This document shows positions 8,119 through 53,784 of a stretch of DNA of 64,000 nucleotides, one piece after another. Numbering within the stretch: position 1 is the stretch's first letter; every line of letters starts with the position of its first letter. Made by a program: the position numbers and the translations under genes. The notes beneath the pieces were generated by a model that worked only from the letters and a program-made list of their open reading frames with translations, did not search any database and was not told the origin of the DNA. Source of the stretch: Burkholderia pseudomultivorans (GTDB lineage: Bacteria; Pseudomonadota; Gammaproteobacteria; Burkholderiales; Burkholderiaceae); NCBI RefSeq assembly GCF_001718415.1, contig NZ_CP013378.1, forward strand, positions 4,154,001 to 4,218,000, read 5' to 3'.

Positions 8119-9174
8119 TCACACGGCCGGCGCCGCGCCGTCGCGCGACGCGGCCGCCGCGAGCGTCGCCCACAGCGCGTCGCCGCGCCATGCCGGACGC
8201 ACCGCGGCGGCTTCGGCGTCGTGCACGAGCGCGCACAGCCGCGCATTGACGCTCGCATGCCCGCCGACGCGCTGCGCGAGCCGCACCACCTCACCGTTGA
8301 TCCACTCGACTTCGGTCGCGCGGCGCGCGGCCAGATCGTCGGACATCGACGACCGCGCGAGCGGATCGATCGCGAGCATCGCGCCGCCGAGCACGCGGAA
8401 CACCGGATCGGGCAGGTCAAGCACGGCCGGCACCCACGCGGCCGGCAGCGGCGTGAGCCGCGCGGGCCGGATCGCCGCGCGCGCGAGCCAGTGCAGCGCC
8501 TCGCGCTGCGCGAGCGCGACGCAGCGCCGGTATGCATGCTGCGCGAGCTCGTCGCGCAGCGGCAGGTTGGCGAGTGCGTTGACCGCGTTGTTCAGGTTCA
8601 GCAGCAGCTTCGCCCATTGCACGGCCTGCATGTCGCGGTGCAGCGCCAGCGGCAGCCCGGCGCTCGCGAACAGCTGCGTGAACGGCGCAAGCGCAGGCGA
8701 CGCGTCGGCCGCGAGCGTGCCGGCCGAGCCCTGGTGAAACGCGCCCGGCCCGCGTTCGATCACGTTGAACGGCACCATGCCGGCCAGCACGGTCGCCCGC
8801 GGCAGCGCATCGCGCAGCACGCGCGCGTTGTGCAGCCCGTTCTGGAAGCTGATCACGATCGCGCCGGGCCGCAGCACGCCGGCCAGCTGCATCGCCACGT
8901 CGTGCGTCGCCGCCGATTTCACCGTGACGAGCACGAGCCGCGCTGCGGTCGCCGCGGCCGGATCGGTCGAGAACGCGACCTCGGCCGGCGCGAGCGCCGC
9001 GCGATAGCCGCGCCGGTCGGTCAGCACGAGCCCGTGCGCGCGAATCGCGTCGCCGATCCTTGCCCGGCCGATCAGCTGCACGGGCGCGCCGGCCGCCGCG
9101 AGCCGGCCGCCGAGATAGCAGCCGACCGCGCCTGCGCCGAACACGCAGACCGGCGCCGCCCGCGCATCAGACAT
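8119..9174 (-). CDS. panE: 2-dehydropantoate 2-reductase (ketopantoate reductase)
   Basis: 351 residues, somewhat longer than the usual 300-310. It makes pantoate from ketopantoate with NADPH, in pantothenate and CoA synthesis. The N-terminal Rossmann motif is GAGAVGCYLGG. After β2 comes LIGRAR with R37, the position used to hold the NADPH phosphate. N112 (FQNGLHN), K189 (QWAKLLLNLNN) and E288 (RRATEVEWING) match the catalytic and substrate-binding residues. Its start overlaps the end of the Mpo1-like gene by 8 bp, so the two are probably co-transcribed. Contrast this with the second family member at 48740-49672, whose cofactor site differs. Confidence 0.85.
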   Translation of the reverse strand: MSDARAAPVCVFGAGAVGCYLGGRLAAAGAPVQLIGRARIGDAIRAHGLVLTDRRGYRAALAPAEVAFSTDPAAATAARLVLVTVKSAATHDVAMQLAGVLRPGAIVISFQNGLHNARVLRDALPRATVLAGMVPFNVIERGPGAFHQGSAGTLAADASPALAPFTQLFASAGLPLALHRDMQAVQWAKLLLNLNNAVNALANLPLRDELAQHAYRRCVALAQREALHWLARAAIRPARLTPLPAAWVPAVLDLPDPVFRVLGGAMLAIDPLARSSMSDDLAARRATEVEWINGEVVRLAQRVGGHASVNARLCALVHDAEAAAVRPAWRGDALWATLAAAASRDGAAPAV

Positions 9175-47092: not shown

Positions 47093-48490
47093 TCACGACG
47101 ACGTGCGGACCAGCTCCTCCCGCTCGCGCGGCCGCGCCGGCTCGCGCGACAGCTTCGGGATATGCCGCCGCACGACCAGCAGCGCGACGCAGACGATGCC
47201 CATCGCGACGGCCAGCATCGTCAGATAGGCGGTCGCGCCGCCCGTCGTGATCACGAACGCGCCCGCGAACGCGCTGAGGATCGCACCGAGCCGGCCGAAC
47301 GCGAGCGCGCTCGCGGTGCCGGTCGCGCGCACCGCCGTCGGGTAGATGTACGCGCAAAGCGCATACATCGTCGACTGCACCGCGTTGACGAACAGGCCGT
47401 GCGCGCCGAGCCCGACGATCAGCCAGCTCGTATGGCTGCCCGCATCGACGCCCATCAGCCACGCCGCGCTCGCCGCGCCGCCGACGCTGCACAGCACGAG
47501 CGGCCAGCGCGAGCCGACGCGCGCGATCGTCCATGCGCACAGCAGCGCGCCGATCACGCCGCCGAGGTTGTACGCGGTGAGCCCCGCGCCCGCGACCGAC
47601 ACGCTCAGCCCGCTCGCGGCGAGCATCGTCGGCAGCCAGCTGAATGCCGCATAGACGGCCAGCAGGCACATGAAGAACGCGCACCACAGCGCGATCGTGT
47701 CGCGCGCCTGGCCGCCCGCGAACAGCGAGCGGAACCCGCCGCTGCCGCCGTGCGCATGCGCATCCCGCAGGTCGGTGAACACGGCGCCCGGCGCGACCGG
47801 ACGCTTCATCCGCGCCAGCAGCGCCGCGAGCTCGGCCCAGCGGGCGGGACGCCGCGCGAGGTAGCGCGGCGATTCCGGCAGCGCCGCCGCCAGCACGAAG
47901 CCGAGCACGAGCGGCAGCGCACCGCCCGCGAAGAACAGCATGCGCCAGCCGTGGCGCGGCAGCACCTCGTGCGCGAACAGCCCGGCCAGCATGCCGCCGA
48001 GCGGCACGCAGACGATCGTCGCGGTGACCATCATCGTGCGGCGCCGCGCAGGCGTGTATTCGGCGGTCATCGTGGTCGCGGTCGGCAGTGCGCCGCCGAT
48101 GCCGAGGCCGGCGACGAAGCGCAGCGCGGCGATCGTCTCGACGTTGTGCGCGAGCCCGATCGCGCAGGTCGCGGCCCCGAACAGGAACACGCTGCCGAGC
48201 ACCGCGCCGCGCCGGCCGAAACGGTCGGCGACGAGCCCCGCGCACGCGCTGCCGATCCCCATCCCGATCAGCCCGGCCGCGACCGCCGGCGCGAAGGCGC
48301 CGCGCGTGATGCCCCATTCCTTGATCAGCACCGGAATCGCGAAGCCGATCAGCTGGCCGTCGAAACCGTCGAGCACGATCGACAGCGCGGCCAGCAGCAC
48401 CACGCATTTCTGCATCGTCGTAAACGGGCCGTCGTCGAGCGTCGCGCCGATGTCGACGGCCGGCGCAGTGGAGTCGTCGCGCGTGCTCAT
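47093..48490 (-). CDS. MFS transporter, aromatic-acid:H+ symporter type
   Basis: 465 residues, 12 transmembrane helices, from ATG 48490 with GGAGGC upstream. The helix-1 motif LDGFDGQLIGFAIPVL with its acidic pair is typical of AAHS permeases such as PcaK and BenK. The loop 2-3 motif is GLVADRFGRRGAVLGS, and LPESPRYLARRP follows helix 6. It lies downstream of the mdlC cluster on the same strand (249-bp gap) and is the likely uptake system for the aromatic acid used there, such as mandelate, benzoylformate or benzoate. It converges on kynA. Confidence 0.9.
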   Translation of the reverse strand: MSTRDDSTAPAVDIGATLDDGPFTTMQKCVVLLAALSIVLDGFDGQLIGFAIPVLIKEWGITRGAFAPAVAAGLIGMGIGSACAGLVADRFGRRGAVLGSVFLFGAATCAIGLAHNVETIAALRFVAGLGIGGALPTATTMTAEYTPARRRTMMVTATIVCVPLGGMLAGLFAHEVLPRHGWRMLFFAGGALPLVLGFVLAAALPESPRYLARRPARWAELAALLARMKRPVAPGAVFTDLRDAHAHGGSGGFRSLFAGGQARDTIALWCAFFMCLLAVYAAFSWLPTMLAASGLSVSVAGAGLTAYNLGGVIGALLCAWTIARVGSRWPLVLCSVGGAASAAWLMGVDAGSHTSWLIVGLGAHGLFVNAVQSTMYALCAYIYPTAVRATGTASALAFGRLGAILSAFAGAFVITTGGATAYLTMLAVAMGIVCVALLVVRRHIPKLSREPARPREREELVRTSS

Positions 48491-48739
48491 GCGTGCCTCC
48501 ATCCCGCACAAGGCGGAACCGTGCGCATGCCGTGCGCGGCGAAACTGCGGCAATCGAGTGCTTTCATCCTGTCTCCTTCCGATGCTTCCCGTTCGACCCG
48601 GCCGGCGCAGCAGCGCCGATCCGGACCCCATGCCTCGCACGCCAGCCTCGTGCCAGGCGAGATGACGATCCGGCGCCGTGGCGATGCCCGGCGCTCTTGT
48701 ATCTCGTCGCGCGGCGCAAGCCGGCCGCCGGCGTGACGC

Positions 48740-49672
48740 TCAGCCCGCCTGCGCGTCGATCACGCGCACCAGGCCCAGCATCGTTTCGGTATGCGGGACC
48801 GCCAGCCCGACCTCGCGCGCGGCGGCGACCACCTTGCCGCTGATCGCGTCGATCTCGGTGCGGCGACCCGCGAGCACGTCCTGCAGCATCGACGGACGAT
48901 GGCCGCGATGTTCGCGGATCGCATGCTCGACGTTGCGCGCGATGCGCGCGGCGTCGACCGCGATGCCCTTCGCACGCGCGACCGCGGCCGTCTCGGCGAC
49001 GATCGCCTGCGCGAGGCGCGGCCCGTCGTGATGCTCGCCGAGCTGGTCGACCGTGCAGCGCGTCACCGCGCACAGCGTGTTGAGCGCCGCGTTGAACGCG
49101 ACCTTCTCCCAGATCGCGGCCCACACGTCCGCATCGAGCGTGCAGGCGAGCCCCGCGCTCGACAGCGCGTCGGCCACCGCCGCCGCGAACGCGCTGCCCG
49201 CGCCGTCGGCCGTCATCATGCGGATCGTGCCCGCGCCATGCGAATGCACGCGCCCGGGGCCGGCCAGATCGGCGGGCCAGGTCGTGACGCCGACCAGGAT
49301 CCGCTCGAGCGGCACGAACGCGTTCAGCGTCTCGACATTGCCGAGCCCGTTCTGCAGCGTCAGCACATGCGTGTGCGGCGTCAGCAGCGCGCGCACGCCG
49401 TCGAGCGCGACGCGCGTATGCAGCGACTTCGTGAAGACGATCAGCAGATCGAACGGTGTGCCGGCCGACGCATTCGCGGCCTCGGGCCGCAGCGCCTGCA
49501 ACGTCGTGACGCGGCGCTCGCCGCGGTCGTCGTCGATGCGCAGCCCGTCGCGGCGAATCGCGTCGAGATGCGCGTCGTTGACGTCGATCAGCGTGACGTC
49601 CTCGCCGCTTTCCGCGAGCAGCCCGCCGAACAGCGAGCCCATTGCGCCGGCGCCCAGAATCGCGATTCTCAT
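48740..49672 (-). CDS. Ketopantoate-reductase-family dehydrogenase (candidate D-mandelate dehydrogenase)
   Basis: 310 residues. The Rossmann motif is GAGAMGSLFGG; N108 (LQNGLGN), K190 (WEKVAFNAALNTL) and E273 (RRTEIDAISG) are the family's catalytic residues. The β2 end reads TLIDVND: D30 is present and the Arg that binds the NADPH phosphate in E. coli PanE is V31, which predicts NAD use. The window already has a conventional PanE (8119-9174) with that Arg. NAD-dependent D-2-hydroxyacid dehydrogenases, including enterococcal D-mandelate dehydrogenases, belong to this family. The gene is 13 bp downstream of the aldehyde dehydrogenase and in one unit with mdlC. D-mandelate to benzoylformate is therefore a reasoned guess; ketopantoate reduction is the alternative. 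Confidence 0.85.
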   Translation of the reverse strand: MRIAILGAGAMGSLFGGLLAESGEDVTLIDVNDAHLDAIRRDGLRIDDDRGERRVTTLQALRPEAANASAGTPFDLLIVFTKSLHTRVALDGVRALLTPHTHVLTLQNGLGNVETLNAFVPLERILVGVTTWPADLAGPGRVHSHGAGTIRMMTADGAGSAFAAAVADALSSAGLACTLDADVWAAIWEKVAFNAALNTLCAVTRCTVDQLGEHHDGPRLAQAIVAETAAVARAKGIAVDAARIARNVEHAIREHRGHRPSMLQDVLAGRRTEIDAISGKVVAAAREVGLAVPHTETMLGLVRVIDAQAG

Positions 49673-49685
49673 CGTTGGCGGCCTC

Positions 49686-51137
49686 TCAGAACGGATAGTG
49701 GCGCGGCGCGGTCTGCACGGTGATCCAGCGCAGGTCCGTGAAGGCCGCGATGCCGGCCTTGCCGCCGAAATGGCCGAAGCCGCTGTCCTTCACACCGCCG
49801 AACGGCATCTGCGCCTCGTCGTGCACGGTCGGGCCGTTCACGTGACAGATGCCCGACTCGATGCGGGCGGCGACGCGCAACGCGCGCGCGACGTCGCGGC
49901 TGAACACGGCCGACGACAGGCCGAACGCGTTGTCGTTCGCGCAGCGGATCGCGGCCGCCTCGCCGTCGACGCGCACGATGCCCTTCACCGGACCGAACGA
50001 TTCCTCCGCGTAGATCCGCATCGCGGGCGTCACGTGGTCGAGCAGCGTCGCCGGGAACAGCGTGCTGTCGGCCTTGCCACCGCACAGCAGCGTCGCGCCG
50101 TGCGCGAGCGCATCGTCGATCAGCGCGTTGCAGCGTTCGACGGCCTTCGCGTCGATCAGCGAACCGAGCACGACCGGCCCGTTTCGCGGATCGCCGAGCG
50201 GCAGCGACGCGGCCTTGTCGGCGAGCTTCGCGGCAAACGCATCGGCGATCGACGCATCCACGACGATTCGCTCGGTCGACATGCAGATCTGCCCGGAATT
50301 CGCGAACGCGCCGAACGCGGCGGCCGCGACCGCGGCATCGAGGTCCGCGTCGTCGAGCACGACGAGCGGCGCCTTGCCGCCGAGTTCGAGCACCGACGGC
50401 TTCAGGTGGCGCGCGCACGCTTCGGCGACGATCCGGCCGACCCGCGTCGACCCGGTGAAGTTCACGCGGCGCACGGCCGGATGCGCGATCAGCGCGTCGA
50501 CGACGGCGCCCGCATCGTCGGGCGCGTTCGTCACGAAGTTGACGACGCCCGGCGGCAGCCCGGCGTCCTGCAGCGCCTCGACGATCAGCCCGTGCGTGAC
50601 CGGGCACAGCTCCGAGCCCTTCAGCACGACCGTGTTGCCGCATGCGAGCGGCAGCGCGAGCGCGCGCGTGCCGAGGATCACCGGCGCATTCCACGGCGCG
50701 ATGCCGAGCACGACGCCGGCCGGCTGGCGCACGCCCATCGCGAGCGAGCCGGGCACGTCGGACGGAATCAGCTCGCCGCCGACCTGGGTGGTCAGCGACG
50801 CGGCCTCGACGAGCCCGCTCACCGCGAGCTGCACGTTGAATTCCGCCCACAGCGCCGACGCGCCCGTCTCGGCCGCCATCGCCCCGACGAACTGCTCGCG
50901 CTTCGCGTCGAGTGCGTCGGCCGCCTTCAGCAGCAGCGCGCGCCGCGCGCCGGGGCCGAGCGCGGCCCACTCGGGAAACGCACGGCCGGCCGCGTCGGCC
51001 GCCGCGCGTGCATCGTCGACGGTGCACGCAGGCGCTTCGGACGCGATCGCGCCGTCGAGCGGATTGCGGCGCACGAAGGTCGCGCCGTCGGACGATTGGC
51101 GGCGTTCGCCGCCGATCAGCATCGATACGGTTTGCAT
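49686..51137 (-). CDS. Aldehyde dehydrogenase, probably benzaldehyde dehydrogenase
   Basis: 483 residues from ATG 51137 (GGAGAG upstream). It has E251 in LELGGKAPLVV and the catalytic C285 in FANSGQICMSTERIVVD, with APWNAPVILGTRAL and the NFTGSTRVGR segment of the NAD site. The sequence belongs to the salicylaldehyde/benzaldehyde/vanillin dehydrogenase group. In context it should oxidise benzaldehyde released by MdlC to benzoate. It differs in class from the shorter Pseudomonas putida MdlD, so I give no gene symbol. It is 29 bp downstream of mdlC. Confidence 0.92.
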   Translation of the reverse strand: MQTVSMLIGGERRQSSDGATFVRRNPLDGAIASEAPACTVDDARAAADAAGRAFPEWAALGPGARRALLLKAADALDAKREQFVGAMAAETGASALWAEFNVQLAVSGLVEAASLTTQVGGELIPSDVPGSLAMGVRQPAGVVLGIAPWNAPVILGTRALALPLACGNTVVLKGSELCPVTHGLIVEALQDAGLPPGVVNFVTNAPDDAGAVVDALIAHPAVRRVNFTGSTRVGRIVAEACARHLKPSVLELGGKAPLVVLDDADLDAAVAAAAFGAFANSGQICMSTERIVVDASIADAFAAKLADKAASLPLGDPRNGPVVLGSLIDAKAVERCNALIDDALAHGATLLCGGKADSTLFPATLLDHVTPAMRIYAEESFGPVKGIVRVDGEAAAIRCANDNAFGLSSAVFSRDVARALRVAARIESGICHVNGPTVHDEAQMPFGGVKDSGFGHFGGKAGIAAFTDLRWITVQTAPRHYPF

Positions 51138-51166
51138 GGTCTCTCCGGAATGACGCGCGGGGCGCA

Positions 51167-52774
51167 TCAGGCAATCTCGACTTCGACGACGACCGGTGCG
51201 GTTGCACGCAGCGCATCGGCCAGCGTGTCGCGCAGGCGCGCCGGGTCGCCGACGCGCACGCCGCGGCAGCCGAGCCCGACCGCGAGCGCGACGAAGTCGA
51301 GATCGGGCAGATCGGTGCCCTGCACCGGATCGTCCGGCCCGAAGCCGAAGACCGGCGCGAAATCCTGCAGCGCCGCGTAGCGCCGGTTGTTCAGGATCAC
51401 GAATGTGATCGGCAGCCTGAGCTGCGCAGCGCTCCACAGCGCCTGGATCGAATACAGGCTCGACCCGTCGCCGATCAGCCCGATCACGCGCCGCCCCGGC
51501 CGTGCCAGCGCGACGCCGACGGCAGCCGGCATCCCGTAGCCGAGCCCGCCGCTGTCCATCGTGTAGAACGTGCCGCTCTGCGTGAACGGCAGATGCGCCT
51601 GCATGATCGGCCGCGCGCTCGGCGCTTCCTCGACGACGATGTCGTGCGCATCGCGCAGGTCGGCGAGCGTCTGCAGCGCGAACGCGGCCGACATGCGCTC
51701 GCCGGCGGCCGGCGGTGCGACGCGCTCGCGCGGCGCGCGCGCGGCCGGCATCGGCCGCTCGGCCGGCGCGGGCCGCGCGAGCAGGTCGCGCGCGGCGAGC
51801 TTCAGGTTGCCGACGACCGCGTCGCCCTGCGGCGTCCAGGCGGCCGTACCGGGATCGTCGACGAGCTGCACGAGCGTGGCGCCGGACGGCACGTGCGGGC
51901 CGAAACCCTCGATGTGATAGGTGAAGGCGGGCGCGCCGAACGCGAACACGAGGTCGTGCCCGTCGAGCCGCGCGACGATCTTCTCGCGAATCGCGGGCAG
52001 GAAACCGGCGAACAGCGGATGGTCTTCGGGAAAGCTGCAGCGCCCTGACATCGGCGCGACGTACACGCGAGCGCGATGCCGCTCGGCGAGCCGCACGGCC
52101 TCATCCCATGCGCCGGCCCGATCGATCGCCGCGCCGACCACGAACGCGGGACGGCGCGCGGCATCCAGTGCGTCGCCGAGCCGCGCGAGCGCGTCGGGGT
52201 CGGGCCGCACGACATGGCTCACGTCGCGCGCCGGCAGCAGTTCGGCCGGCTGGTCCCAGTCGTCGACCGGGATCGACACGAACACGGGCCCGCGCGGCTC
52301 CTGCATCGCGATCCGGTAGGCGCGCGCGATCGCGGCCGGCACGTCCTGCGCGCGCGCCGGCTCGATGCTCCATTTGACGTAAGGCTTCGGCAGCTCGGTG
52401 GCCTGCGCGGCGCCGAGGAACGGATCGAACGGCAGGATCGCACGCGCCTGCTGCCCGGCGGTAATGATCAGCGGCGTGCGGTTCTTGTAGGCGGTGAAGA
52501 TATTGCCCATCGCGTTGCCGACGCCGGCCGCCGAATGGAGATTGACGACCGCCGCATTGCCGCACGCCTGCGCGTAGCCGTCGGCCATGCCGACCACGAC
52601 GGCTTCCTGCAGCCCGAGCACGTAGCGGAAATCGGACGGGAAATCGCGGAACATCGGCAGCTCGGTCGAGCCGGGATTACCGAACACGCGGTCGATGCCG
52701 AACTGGCGCAGCAGGTCGATCACCGCGTCGCGGACGGTGACGGGCGCGGCGGACGGGGTTGGGTGGCCGGACAT
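51167..52774 (-). CDS. mdlC: Benzoylformate decarboxylase
   Basis: 535 residues from ATG 52774; the in-frame extension to 52861 crosses the promoter. This thiamine-diphosphate enzyme turns benzoylformate into benzaldehyde and CO2. The specific active-site residues of the Pseudomonas enzyme are kept: S36 (FGNPGSTELPMF), E57 (LQEAVVVGMADGYA), H80 (NLHSAAGVGNA) and H287 (FTYHIEGFG). The cofactor motif runs from GDGSSLYSIQALW to ILNN. It is first in a unit with the aldehyde dehydrogenase and the PanE-like gene, divergent from a LysR regulator. Confidence 0.94.
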   Translation of the reverse strand: MSGHPTPSAAPVTVRDAVIDLLRQFGIDRVFGNPGSTELPMFRDFPSDFRYVLGLQEAVVVGMADGYAQACGNAAVVNLHSAAGVGNAMGNIFTAYKNRTPLIITAGQQARAILPFDPFLGAAQATELPKPYVKWSIEPARAQDVPAAIARAYRIAMQEPRGPVFVSIPVDDWDQPAELLPARDVSHVVRPDPDALARLGDALDAARRPAFVVGAAIDRAGAWDEAVRLAERHRARVYVAPMSGRCSFPEDHPLFAGFLPAIREKIVARLDGHDLVFAFGAPAFTYHIEGFGPHVPSGATLVQLVDDPGTAAWTPQGDAVVGNLKLAARDLLARPAPAERPMPAARAPRERVAPPAAGERMSAAFALQTLADLRDAHDIVVEEAPSARPIMQAHLPFTQSGTFYTMDSGGLGYGMPAAVGVALARPGRRVIGLIGDGSSLYSIQALWSAAQLRLPITFVILNNRRYAALQDFAPVFGFGPDDPVQGTDLPDLDFVALAVGLGCRGVRVGDPARLRDTLADALRATAPVVVEVEIA

Positions 52775-52807: not shown

Positions 52808-52842
52808 ACAGTATCGAAGCGCAAGCCATTCTCGGATACTGT
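52808..52842. promoter_or_regulatory. Candidate LysR operator between mdlC and its regulator
   Basis: Perfect 8-bp inverted repeat ACAGTATC (52808-52815)/GATACTGT (52835-52842) with a 19-bp spacer, inside the 98-bp divergent gap. The repeat centre is about 50 bp from each start codon, as expected for a LysR protein that represses its own gene and activates the other. Confidence 0.55.
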
Positions 52843-52872: not shown

Positions 52873-53784
52873 ATGACTTTCGATCTCCGCCAGTTGCGCG
52901 CCTTCACGACGATCGTCGCGTGCGGCAGCCTCGGCCGTGCGGCCGACGCGCTGCACGTCACGCAGCCGGCGCTGAGCCGGATCCTGAAGCGCCTCGAGGA
53001 CCAGGTCGGCGCGCCGCTGTTCGAGCGCCATTCGAAGGGCGTGCAGCTCACCGCGTTCGGCGAGGCGCTGCTGCCGCACGCGACGCTGCTGCAGCACGAG
53101 GCCGAGCACGCGCGCGAGGAACTCGACGCGATGCGCGGCCTCGCGAAGGGCACGATCAAGGTCGGCACGGTGGGCAGCATCGCGAGCCTCGTGCTGCCCG
53201 TCGCGGTCGGCCGCGTGCTCGACCGCTGGCCGAACCTGCGCGTCGAGATCATCGAAGGCGTGTGGGACCGGCTCGCCGAAGGACTGTTCAAGCACGAGAT
53301 CGACCTCGCGCTGTCCGCGCACGGGCCCGACACCGATGAAATCGTCGCGATTCCCGAATGCCGCTGGACCGATCGCAGCCATATCGTTGCCGCGCCGCAC
53401 CATCCGCTGCGTGCGCTCGGCCGCGCGCCGACGCTCGCCGACACGCTGCACGCGCGCTGGGCGATCCCGCCGCGCGGCACCGCGCCGTTCGACCACATGC
53501 GCGCGACCTTCGAGGCGCACGGGCTGCCGCTGCCCGATATCGCGGTCGAGACGCGCTCGGTCACGACGCTGAAGAGCCTCGTCGCGCATGCGGGCTTTCT
53601 GTGCTGGATGGCCGAGCCGATGTACGGCGCCGAGCAGCGCGCCGGCACGATCGATACGCTGCCGGTGCGCGAAGTGGTCGCGCAGCGCACGCTCACCGCG
53701 TTCCGCCGCCGTCACGGGATTCTGCCGGGGCCGGCCGGCAAGCTGCTGGAAGAACTGGTCGCGTTGACACGCGAGGCGCGCTGA
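52873..53784 (+). CDS. LysR-family regulator of the benzoylformate cluster
   Basis: 303 residues. The N-terminal HTH is LRQLRAFTTIVACGSLGRAADALHVTQPALSRILKRLEDQVG. The effector domain (about 92-295) starts at IKVGTVGSIASLVLPVAVGR. It is divergent from mdlC with the inverted repeat 52808-52842 between them, so it most likely controls mdlC and the genes behind it, with an aromatic acid such as benzoylformate or mandelate as inducer. The inducer is inference. Confidence 0.92.
   Translation: MTFDLRQLRAFTTIVACGSLGRAADALHVTQPALSRILKRLEDQVGAPLFERHSKGVQLTAFGEALLPHATLLQHEAEHAREELDAMRGLAKGTIKVGTVGSIASLVLPVAVGRVLDRWPNLRVEIIEGVWDRLAEGLFKHEIDLALSAHGPDTDEIVAIPECRWTDRSHIVAAPHHPLRALGRAPTLADTLHARWAIPPRGTAPFDHMRATFEAHGLPLPDIAVETRSVTTLKSLVAHAGFLCWMAEPMYGAEQRAGTIDTLPVREVVAQRTLTAFRRRHGILPGPAGKLLEELVALTREAR

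Follow-up and report, generated by a model that had tools for sequence, protein, structure and literature searches.

A ketopantoate reductase-fold protein as the probable NAD-linked first enzyme of a benzoylformate-type catabolic operon in Burkholderia pseudomultivorans

Introduction

The closest described relatives of the system reported here are the MdlABCD mandelate pathway of Pseudomonas putida, the bzfRABCD cluster of Pseudomonas sp. LLC-1 and the nicotinamide adenine dinucleotide (NAD)-dependent D-mandelate dehydrogenases (D-ManDHs) of ketopantoate reductase (KPR) type from Enterococcus faecium and Lactobacillus brevis. They were compared with an operon in a 64,000-nucleotide stretch of the Burkholderia pseudomultivorans genome (contig NZ_CP013378.1, positions 4,154,001 to 4,218,000; hereafter the window), where a PanE-family gene at positions 48740..49672 of the minus strand stands with genes for benzoylformate decarboxylase (BFDC, MdlC), an aldehyde dehydrogenase (ALDH) and a permease of the major facilitator superfamily (MFS), next to a divergent LysR gene. 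Overall, it is very probable that this operon serves the catabolism of D-(R)-mandelate or of mandelates substituted on the ring, with the KPR-fold enzyme supplying the NAD-linked first step. The predicted function of the 48740-49672 protein is most likely the first step in the breakdown of a mandelic-acid-like compound.

The D-ManDHs of E. faecium (3wfi, 3wfj, 5x20) and L. brevis (8wl1) have in common with the window protein the KPR fold, an Asp ending the second beta-strand, the catalytic Asn, Lys and Glu, and the residues W132, C201, H258 and P260. They differ in their origin from Gram-positives and are about 32-36% identical to the window enzyme, which has Gln107 and an operon setting with BFDC. 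The P. putida MdlABCD pathway shares the BFDC and ALDH steps with the window operon, whereas the first step proposed here is of KPR-fold NAD type and not the flavin mononucleotide (FMN) enzyme MdlB. The gene kinds of bzfRABCD (LysR, BFDC, MFS and ALDH) were also found in the Pseudomonas loci with a KPR gene; in the accessible part of PMC7760541 the description of the bzf cluster includes no KPR gene, whereas in the loci studied here this gene lies inside the set. The same part of that paper gives strain LLC-1 as growing on benzoylformate and not on mandelate (PMC7760541). Biosynthetic PanE (E. coli 1ks9) has the fold and the catalytic residues in common with the window protein, which differs by its missing NADPH-binding Arg, 27% identity and another genomic setting.

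A D-ManDH of the KPR family was reportedly described by Wada in 2008, and an (R)-mandelate dehydrogenase is said to have been reported from a Pseudomonas putida strain, for which our literature search found nothing. The enzyme kind, the BFDC step and the ALDH step are already known. In the open-licence literature, most subscription papers lying outside the search, no account was found of a KPR-type mandelate dehydrogenase within a benzoylformate cluster of proteobacteria, and the use of this enzyme type for the conserved first step of such modules is thus the part that appears to be new.

Results and Discussion

Family assignment and cofactor-site residues

The protein encoded at 48740..49672 (minus strand), a KPR-fold (PanE/ApbA) dehydrogenase proposed as an NAD-dependent D-(R)-mandelate or arylglycolate dehydrogenase, matched PF02558 with 144 bits and PF08546 with 127 bits over its full length. 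Among the 20 families listed for it, TIGR00745, a broad subfamily model, was the only one whose cut-off it exceeded (261 bits against 141), and it passed no narrow curated PanE model. Its translation (...VTLIDVNDAH) and alignment showed D30, V31 and intact N108, K190 and E273 at the positions that an earlier sequence-only reading of the window had given. That reading had also pointed to the gene at 8119-9174 of the window as a conventional PanE, which was borne out by its R37 (...VQLIGRARIG) and by a score of 545 bits against the 2-dehydropantoate 2-reductase model NF006083 (cut-off 371). The NADPH-site Arg of biosynthetic PanE is not in the 48740-49672 protein, where V31 occupies the position.

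The Pfam and TIGR00745 naming, together with public records that call the protein 2-dehydropantoate 2-reductase or ketopantoate reductase family protein, would agree with a true NADPH-dependent ketopantoate reductase that stands in the operon by chance. This is highly improbable, as the NADPH-site Arg is absent and no narrow model was passed, whereas other KPR genes of the genome (8119-9174, L002, L006 and, narrowly, L005) passed narrower models named 2-dehydropantoate 2-reductase; moreover, in 58 of 59 genomes (see below) the orthologue lies close to BFDC, which is not chance.

Asp30 was present in all 32 rows of the clade of the window protein and in the three D-ManDH chains of the alignment, and the next residue in the clade was Val or Ile, never Arg. 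In the same alignment Asp was absent at that position from E. coli PanE, 3hwr, 5hws, 3i83 and the proteins L002, L004 and L006 of the same genome. From Asp30 and the missing Arg we infer that the window KPR-fold enzyme prefers NAD. W132, C201, H258 and P260 matched the three D-ManDH chains and not E. coli PanE; W132 is not invariant within the clade, and at position 107 the clade has Gln where the D-ManDH chains have Leu or Ala. A title by Miyanaga (2013), as cited in the accessible part of PMC4230899, states that D-ManDH recognises coenzyme and substrate unlike KPR.

Structural and phylogenetic comparison

A phmmer search of the PDB gave 2ew2 (190 bits), 8wl1 (181) and 3wfi (162) before 5hws (126) and E. 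coli PanE (73), the top matches by sequence being 2ew2, 8wl1/3/4 and 3wfi. Foldseek with the predicted model of the window protein (predicted local distance difference test score 94) returned D-ManDH entries or 2ew2, and no others, at ranks 1-16, and this structural check favoured the D-ManDH assignment. The nearest solved relatives of the window KPR are thus the D-ManDHs of Enterococcus and Lactobacillus. In a reduced, unrooted tree, the clade, four close outsiders and the D-ManDHs were separated from 3hwr, 5hws and three paralogues with a support of 98/95. The expected grouping with characterised D-ManDHs was obtained only after seven rows flagged as long (L002, L006, 3i83, E. coli PanE, window 8119, L199 and L201) were omitted; 3hwr and 5hws were retained though long-flagged too.

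Several results weigh against the assignment. Fold alone, as compared with VIA-align, does not distinguish D-ManDH from KPR, and 5ayv ties. In the full 50-row tree the clade stood on one side of a branch from the D-ManDH chains, and the position of either relative to the remaining rows was left open; this tree settles nothing deep because its long branches leave the backbone open. Finally, Asp was also found at position 30 in the outsiders L195-L198 and in the paralogues L201, L202 and L203 (with Arg next in L203, from the same genome as the window), so Asp30 alone is no mandelate signature.

The close outsiders L195-L198 (45-47% identity) have other gene contexts, with no BFDC in the stretches fetched. 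The 45%-identical KPR homologue of L198 (7746-12732) adjoins, by eye, a thioesterase-like gene and a pair resembling indolepyruvate ferredoxin oxidoreductase, and perhaps encodes another aryl-2-oxoacid or hydroxyacid enzyme. A KPR-family gene also lies in a conserved run in L200, L202 and L203 (7894-11756; contig C1 of the genome holding the window, about 146.9-150.8 kb) with genes named by reading as VOC-family-like, MaoC-like, CoA-transferase-like and shikimate-dehydrogenase-like. The L203 gene, with Asp then Arg after the second beta-strand, is perhaps another misnamed ketopantoate reductase.

Linkage to benzoylformate decarboxylase

A survey of 299 genomes of the family of the window organism, with orthologues at 58% identity or above (next listed matches 39% or less) and BFDC counted from 68% identity, found the KPR orthologue in 59 genomes. 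All 59 also had BFDC, which was present in 98 genomes in total as it occurred in 39 of the other 240. The two genes were 1.5-3.5 kb apart in 58 of the 59 genomes and on the same strand in 57. The sole genome without a close pair was G181, which has a second BFDC locus on another contig with MdlB-like and nitrilase-like genes (L093).

A second survey covered the best 80 of at least 556 confirmed GTDB loci, with neighbours scored within 7 kb of the KPR gene. BFDC was found in 74 loci and ALDH in 74, while a permease with at least 45% identity was found in 69 and a LysR regulator with at least 45% identity in 51. The BFDC count is a lower bound because genes of unusual composition escape the gene caller, as upstream in L154. 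Among the six loci outside the 74, BFDC was truncated by the contig end in L109 and L124, the whole contig of L169 was 3.5 kb, and L154 showed unrelated genes upstream. In L170 (3496-8909, Azoarcus sp. L1K30), the KPR orthologue (53%) adjoins a thiamine diphosphate enzyme only 24% identical to BFDC, with ALDH and, by eye, a solute-binding-protein-like gene nearby, and this locus possibly carries out the same chemistry on a different 2-oxoacid. L164 (7658-8948, B. seminalis) has an intact KPR gene beside a 110-aa frame that begins BFDC-like by eye and ends ALDH-like (89-residue match), and the frame looks like a remnant of both genes.

The genera represented among the loci include Ralstonia, Cupriavidus, Paraburkholderia, Caballeronia, Trinickia, Variovorax, Achromobacter, Curvibacter, Hydrogenophaga, Acidovorax, Thiomonas and Pseudomonas, together with one Acidobacterium metagenome-assembled genome. 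For the distribution outside the family these GTDB loci were used because a class-wide search with the single protein in 369 genomes matched the genome of the window alone at E ≤ 1e-60.

Flavin mandelate dehydrogenase and racemase genes

The genome holding the window (7.96 Mb in three contigs) was searched for the genes of the flavin route, which the sequence-only reading had not seen in the window. No full-length MdlB/LldD-type gene was found, the MdlB query giving one partial match of 27 bits compared with best matches of 254-616 bits in six other genomes. With the FMN_dh model, three short stretches scored 28-35 bits, which is above the Pfam cut-off, and each covered less than one third of the model; the search was for FMN-type enzymes, FAD-type (R)-mandelate and D-isomer-type 2-hydroxyacid dehydrogenases not being searched. 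As far as the MdlB type is concerned, the genome thus agreed with the proposed route.

For the racemase the result was partial. MR_MLE_C gave nine matches, and none of the eight examined was closest to a characterised mandelate racemase. By NCBIfam they included a galactonate dehydratase, two muconate cycloisomerases and two glucarate-dehydratase-like proteins (one below cut-off), while another was closest to 4ip4, followed by L-fuconate dehydratase. Two had as best matches uncharacterised "mandelate racemase/muconate lactonizing enzyme" entries, with P. putida mandelate racemase far lower or unlisted. For three of the eight the best PDB entry is titled mandelate racemase/muconate lactonizing enzyme (-like or putative).

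The gene content of the module was compared in 40 family loci, 20 of which were chosen with KPR and 20 with BFDC but no adjoining KPR. KPR only was found in 17 loci, KPR with MdlB in 3, MdlB only in 7 and neither in 13. The MdlB of L086 had (S)-mandelate dehydrogenase 6bfg as best PDB match (476 bits). The LysR-BFDC-ALDH module can therefore carry FMN MdlB instead of KPR or alongside it, and the 13 loci with neither resemble the LLC-1 bzf cluster. Strict mutual exclusion of KPR and MdlB was rejected, since both were present in 3 of the 20 family KPR loci and in 11 of the 80 GTDB loci. An in-frame TAG reported for some MdlB genes was absent from the N-terminal stretches checked and its place was not found, and this candidate was dropped.

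Nitrilase-like genes occurred near KPR in four of the 80 GTDB loci (the scanned member was under the NCBIfam cut-off), and nitrilase together with MdlB in four KPR-free loci (L084, L086, L092 and L093). If these nitrilases act on mandelonitrile, KPR would sit among mandelate-forming and mandelate-oxidising genes.

Proposed pathway

In the proposed pathway, the permease would import the hydroxyacid and the KPR-fold enzyme would use NAD+ to oxidise this (R)-2-hydroxyacid at C2, from which the hydride passes to NAD+, giving the aryl-2-oxoacid. In KPR a Lys acts as general base, and by analogy Lys190 may have this role. BFDC would then decarboxylate the aryl-2-oxoacid irreversibly to the aldehyde, and ALDH would turn this into a benzoate-type acid, which would enter ring cleavage through ben/cat or pob/pca. 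The NAD-linked oxidation is thermodynamically poor and would proceed because the irreversible decarboxylation pulls it. The product of KPR, (R)-pantoate, is spatially arranged like an (R)-mandelate-type hydroxyacid. Selectivity for the R form is predicted because the D-ManDH relatives are D-specific and KPR gives this product. Candidate genes for this last stage in the genome include a near-BenA gene (746 bits, cut-off 781) and a PobA gene (543 bits, cut-off 539). The earlier proposal that the gene supplies the step from D-mandelate to benzoylformate is supported by the nearest structures, by the BFDC synteny across many genera and by the genome without a full-length MdlB.

The enzyme might instead work in reverse as a reductase, converting benzoylformate or another aryl or alkyl 2-oxoacid to the D-hydroxyacid, for example in overflow or detoxification. 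By general chemistry the NAD-linked equilibrium favours reduction, and the E. faecalis D-ManDH paper, in its accessible part, stresses activity on 2-oxoacids, among them 2-ketoisovalerate and benzoylformate (PMC4230899). However, permease, decarboxylase and aldehyde dehydrogenase in one operon form a catabolic chain, and in the same module KPR is replaced by or paired with the oxidative flavoenzyme MdlB, which makes the reverse direction unlikely.

If oxidation of (R)-mandelates is the true function, the missing first step of mandelate-type catabolism would be supplied in many proteobacteria, the PanE name of a conserved clade would be corrected and one module would be able to run on an FMN or an NAD enzyme. 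Gene content would then predict enantiomer preference (KPR for R and MdlB for S), and biocatalysts selective for the R form would become available, along with a growth phenotype that is easy to test.

Mandelate or ring-hydroxylated mandelates

With the same enzyme and direction, the physiological substrate may be 4-hydroxymandelate, vanillylmandelate or 3,4-dihydroxymandelate and not mandelate. The gene neighbourhoods raise this possibility because the Achromobacter loci add pobA/pca genes and most Pseudomonas loci adjoin a vanillate-demethylase-like gene. Achromobacter loci L136 (2147-12025) and L149 have one run of BFDC-ALDH-PobA-MFS-KPR-PcaB-PcaC-PcaH-PcaG, the L149 genes being named via similarity to L136. 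In L136 PcaH and PcaG passed their models, PcaB and PcaC were below cut-offs, and PobA passed NF006091 and not TIGR02360. If KPR does the first step, this run is a possible path from 4-hydroxymandelate to ring cleavage. PobA was near KPR in eight of the 80 GTDB loci. All 11 Pseudomonas loci have the order LysR, BFDC, MFS, KPR and ALDH; nine continue with a porin cluster (scanned member OprD) and nine hold a gene from a cluster represented in the scan by a VanA_C Rieske protein (vanillate-demethylase-like), which suggests vanillate as an end product there.

The window ALDH, nearest to salicylaldehyde and vanillin dehydrogenases, and the pobA of the genome also agree with a ring-hydroxylated substrate, as does the BFDC of P. 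fluorescens Pf-5, which acts on benzoylformate or 4-hydroxybenzoylformate (cited in the accessible part of PMC7760541). On the other side, the window operon has no ring-modifying gene and the genome has the near-BenA gene. The C. necator PhgR system, a possible orthologue of the window LysR, responds to unsubstituted phenylglyoxylate according to the accessible part of PMC7057948. A ring-hydroxylated substrate is plausible, though somewhat less likely than not, and for the window operon mandelate and 4-hydroxymandelate are both candidates. More doubtful still, the clade as a whole, from Burkholderia, Ralstonia, Paraburkholderia, Variovorax and Achromobacter to Pseudomonas, may consist of dedicated NAD-dependent (R)-arylglycolate dehydrogenases with 4-hydroxymandelate and vanillylmandelate as main substrates, natural R-configured products of plants, octopamine and catecholamines. 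An enzyme named in databases for vitamin B5 synthesis would then provide a racemase-free and flavin-free route into the benzoylformate pathway.

Operon layout and other features

The minus-strand order in the window is BFDC, ALDH, KPR-family gene and MFS permease, with the LysR gene divergent, so the PanE-family gene does follow mdlC and the ALDH gene as first read. BFDC (51167..52774, minus strand) passed NCBIfam NF005485 with 865 bits (cut-off 493) and had the BFDCs of the 4q9d, 4mpp and 1bfd group as best PDB matches. The ALDH (about 49686..51122, minus strand; PF00171) is a proposed (hydroxy)benzaldehyde dehydrogenase. Its earlier naming as benzaldehyde dehydrogenase stood as to family, while its closest PDB entries are instead salicylaldehyde dehydrogenase 6qhn (640 bits) and vanillin dehydrogenase 9ihb (616 bits). 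The MFS permease (about 47093..48502, minus strand) is of the aromatic acid/H+ symporter (AAHS) type; TIGR00895 was its best family with 299 bits, below the cut-off of 418.55. The LysR-type regulator (52873..53784, plus strand) matched PF00126 and PF03466.

The intergenic gaps were 44 bp (BFDC-ALDH), 13 bp (ALDH-KPR), about 237 bp (KPR-MFS) and 98 bp (LysR-BFDC). The gaps of only 44 and 13 bp suggest that BFDC, ALDH and KPR form one operon. The KPR protein was 97% identical to Burkholderia multivorans and B. dolosa database proteins and 96% to a B. pseudomultivorans one. Downstream of the operon lie kyn genes, which were present in 20 of the 80 GTDB loci, Burkholderia only.

Between LysR and BFDC lies a 35-bp inverted repeat, ACAGTATC-N19-GATACTGT (52808..52842, minus strand), which is a candidate operator or promoter element. 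It was found in 17 of the 52 LysR-BFDC intergenic regions compared, all from Burkholderia loci (L094-L113). Finally, a palindrome-like AAAGG-TAATG-NCTTT close to the LysR start, also a candidate operator, occurred in 36 of these 52 regions with at most two mismatches.

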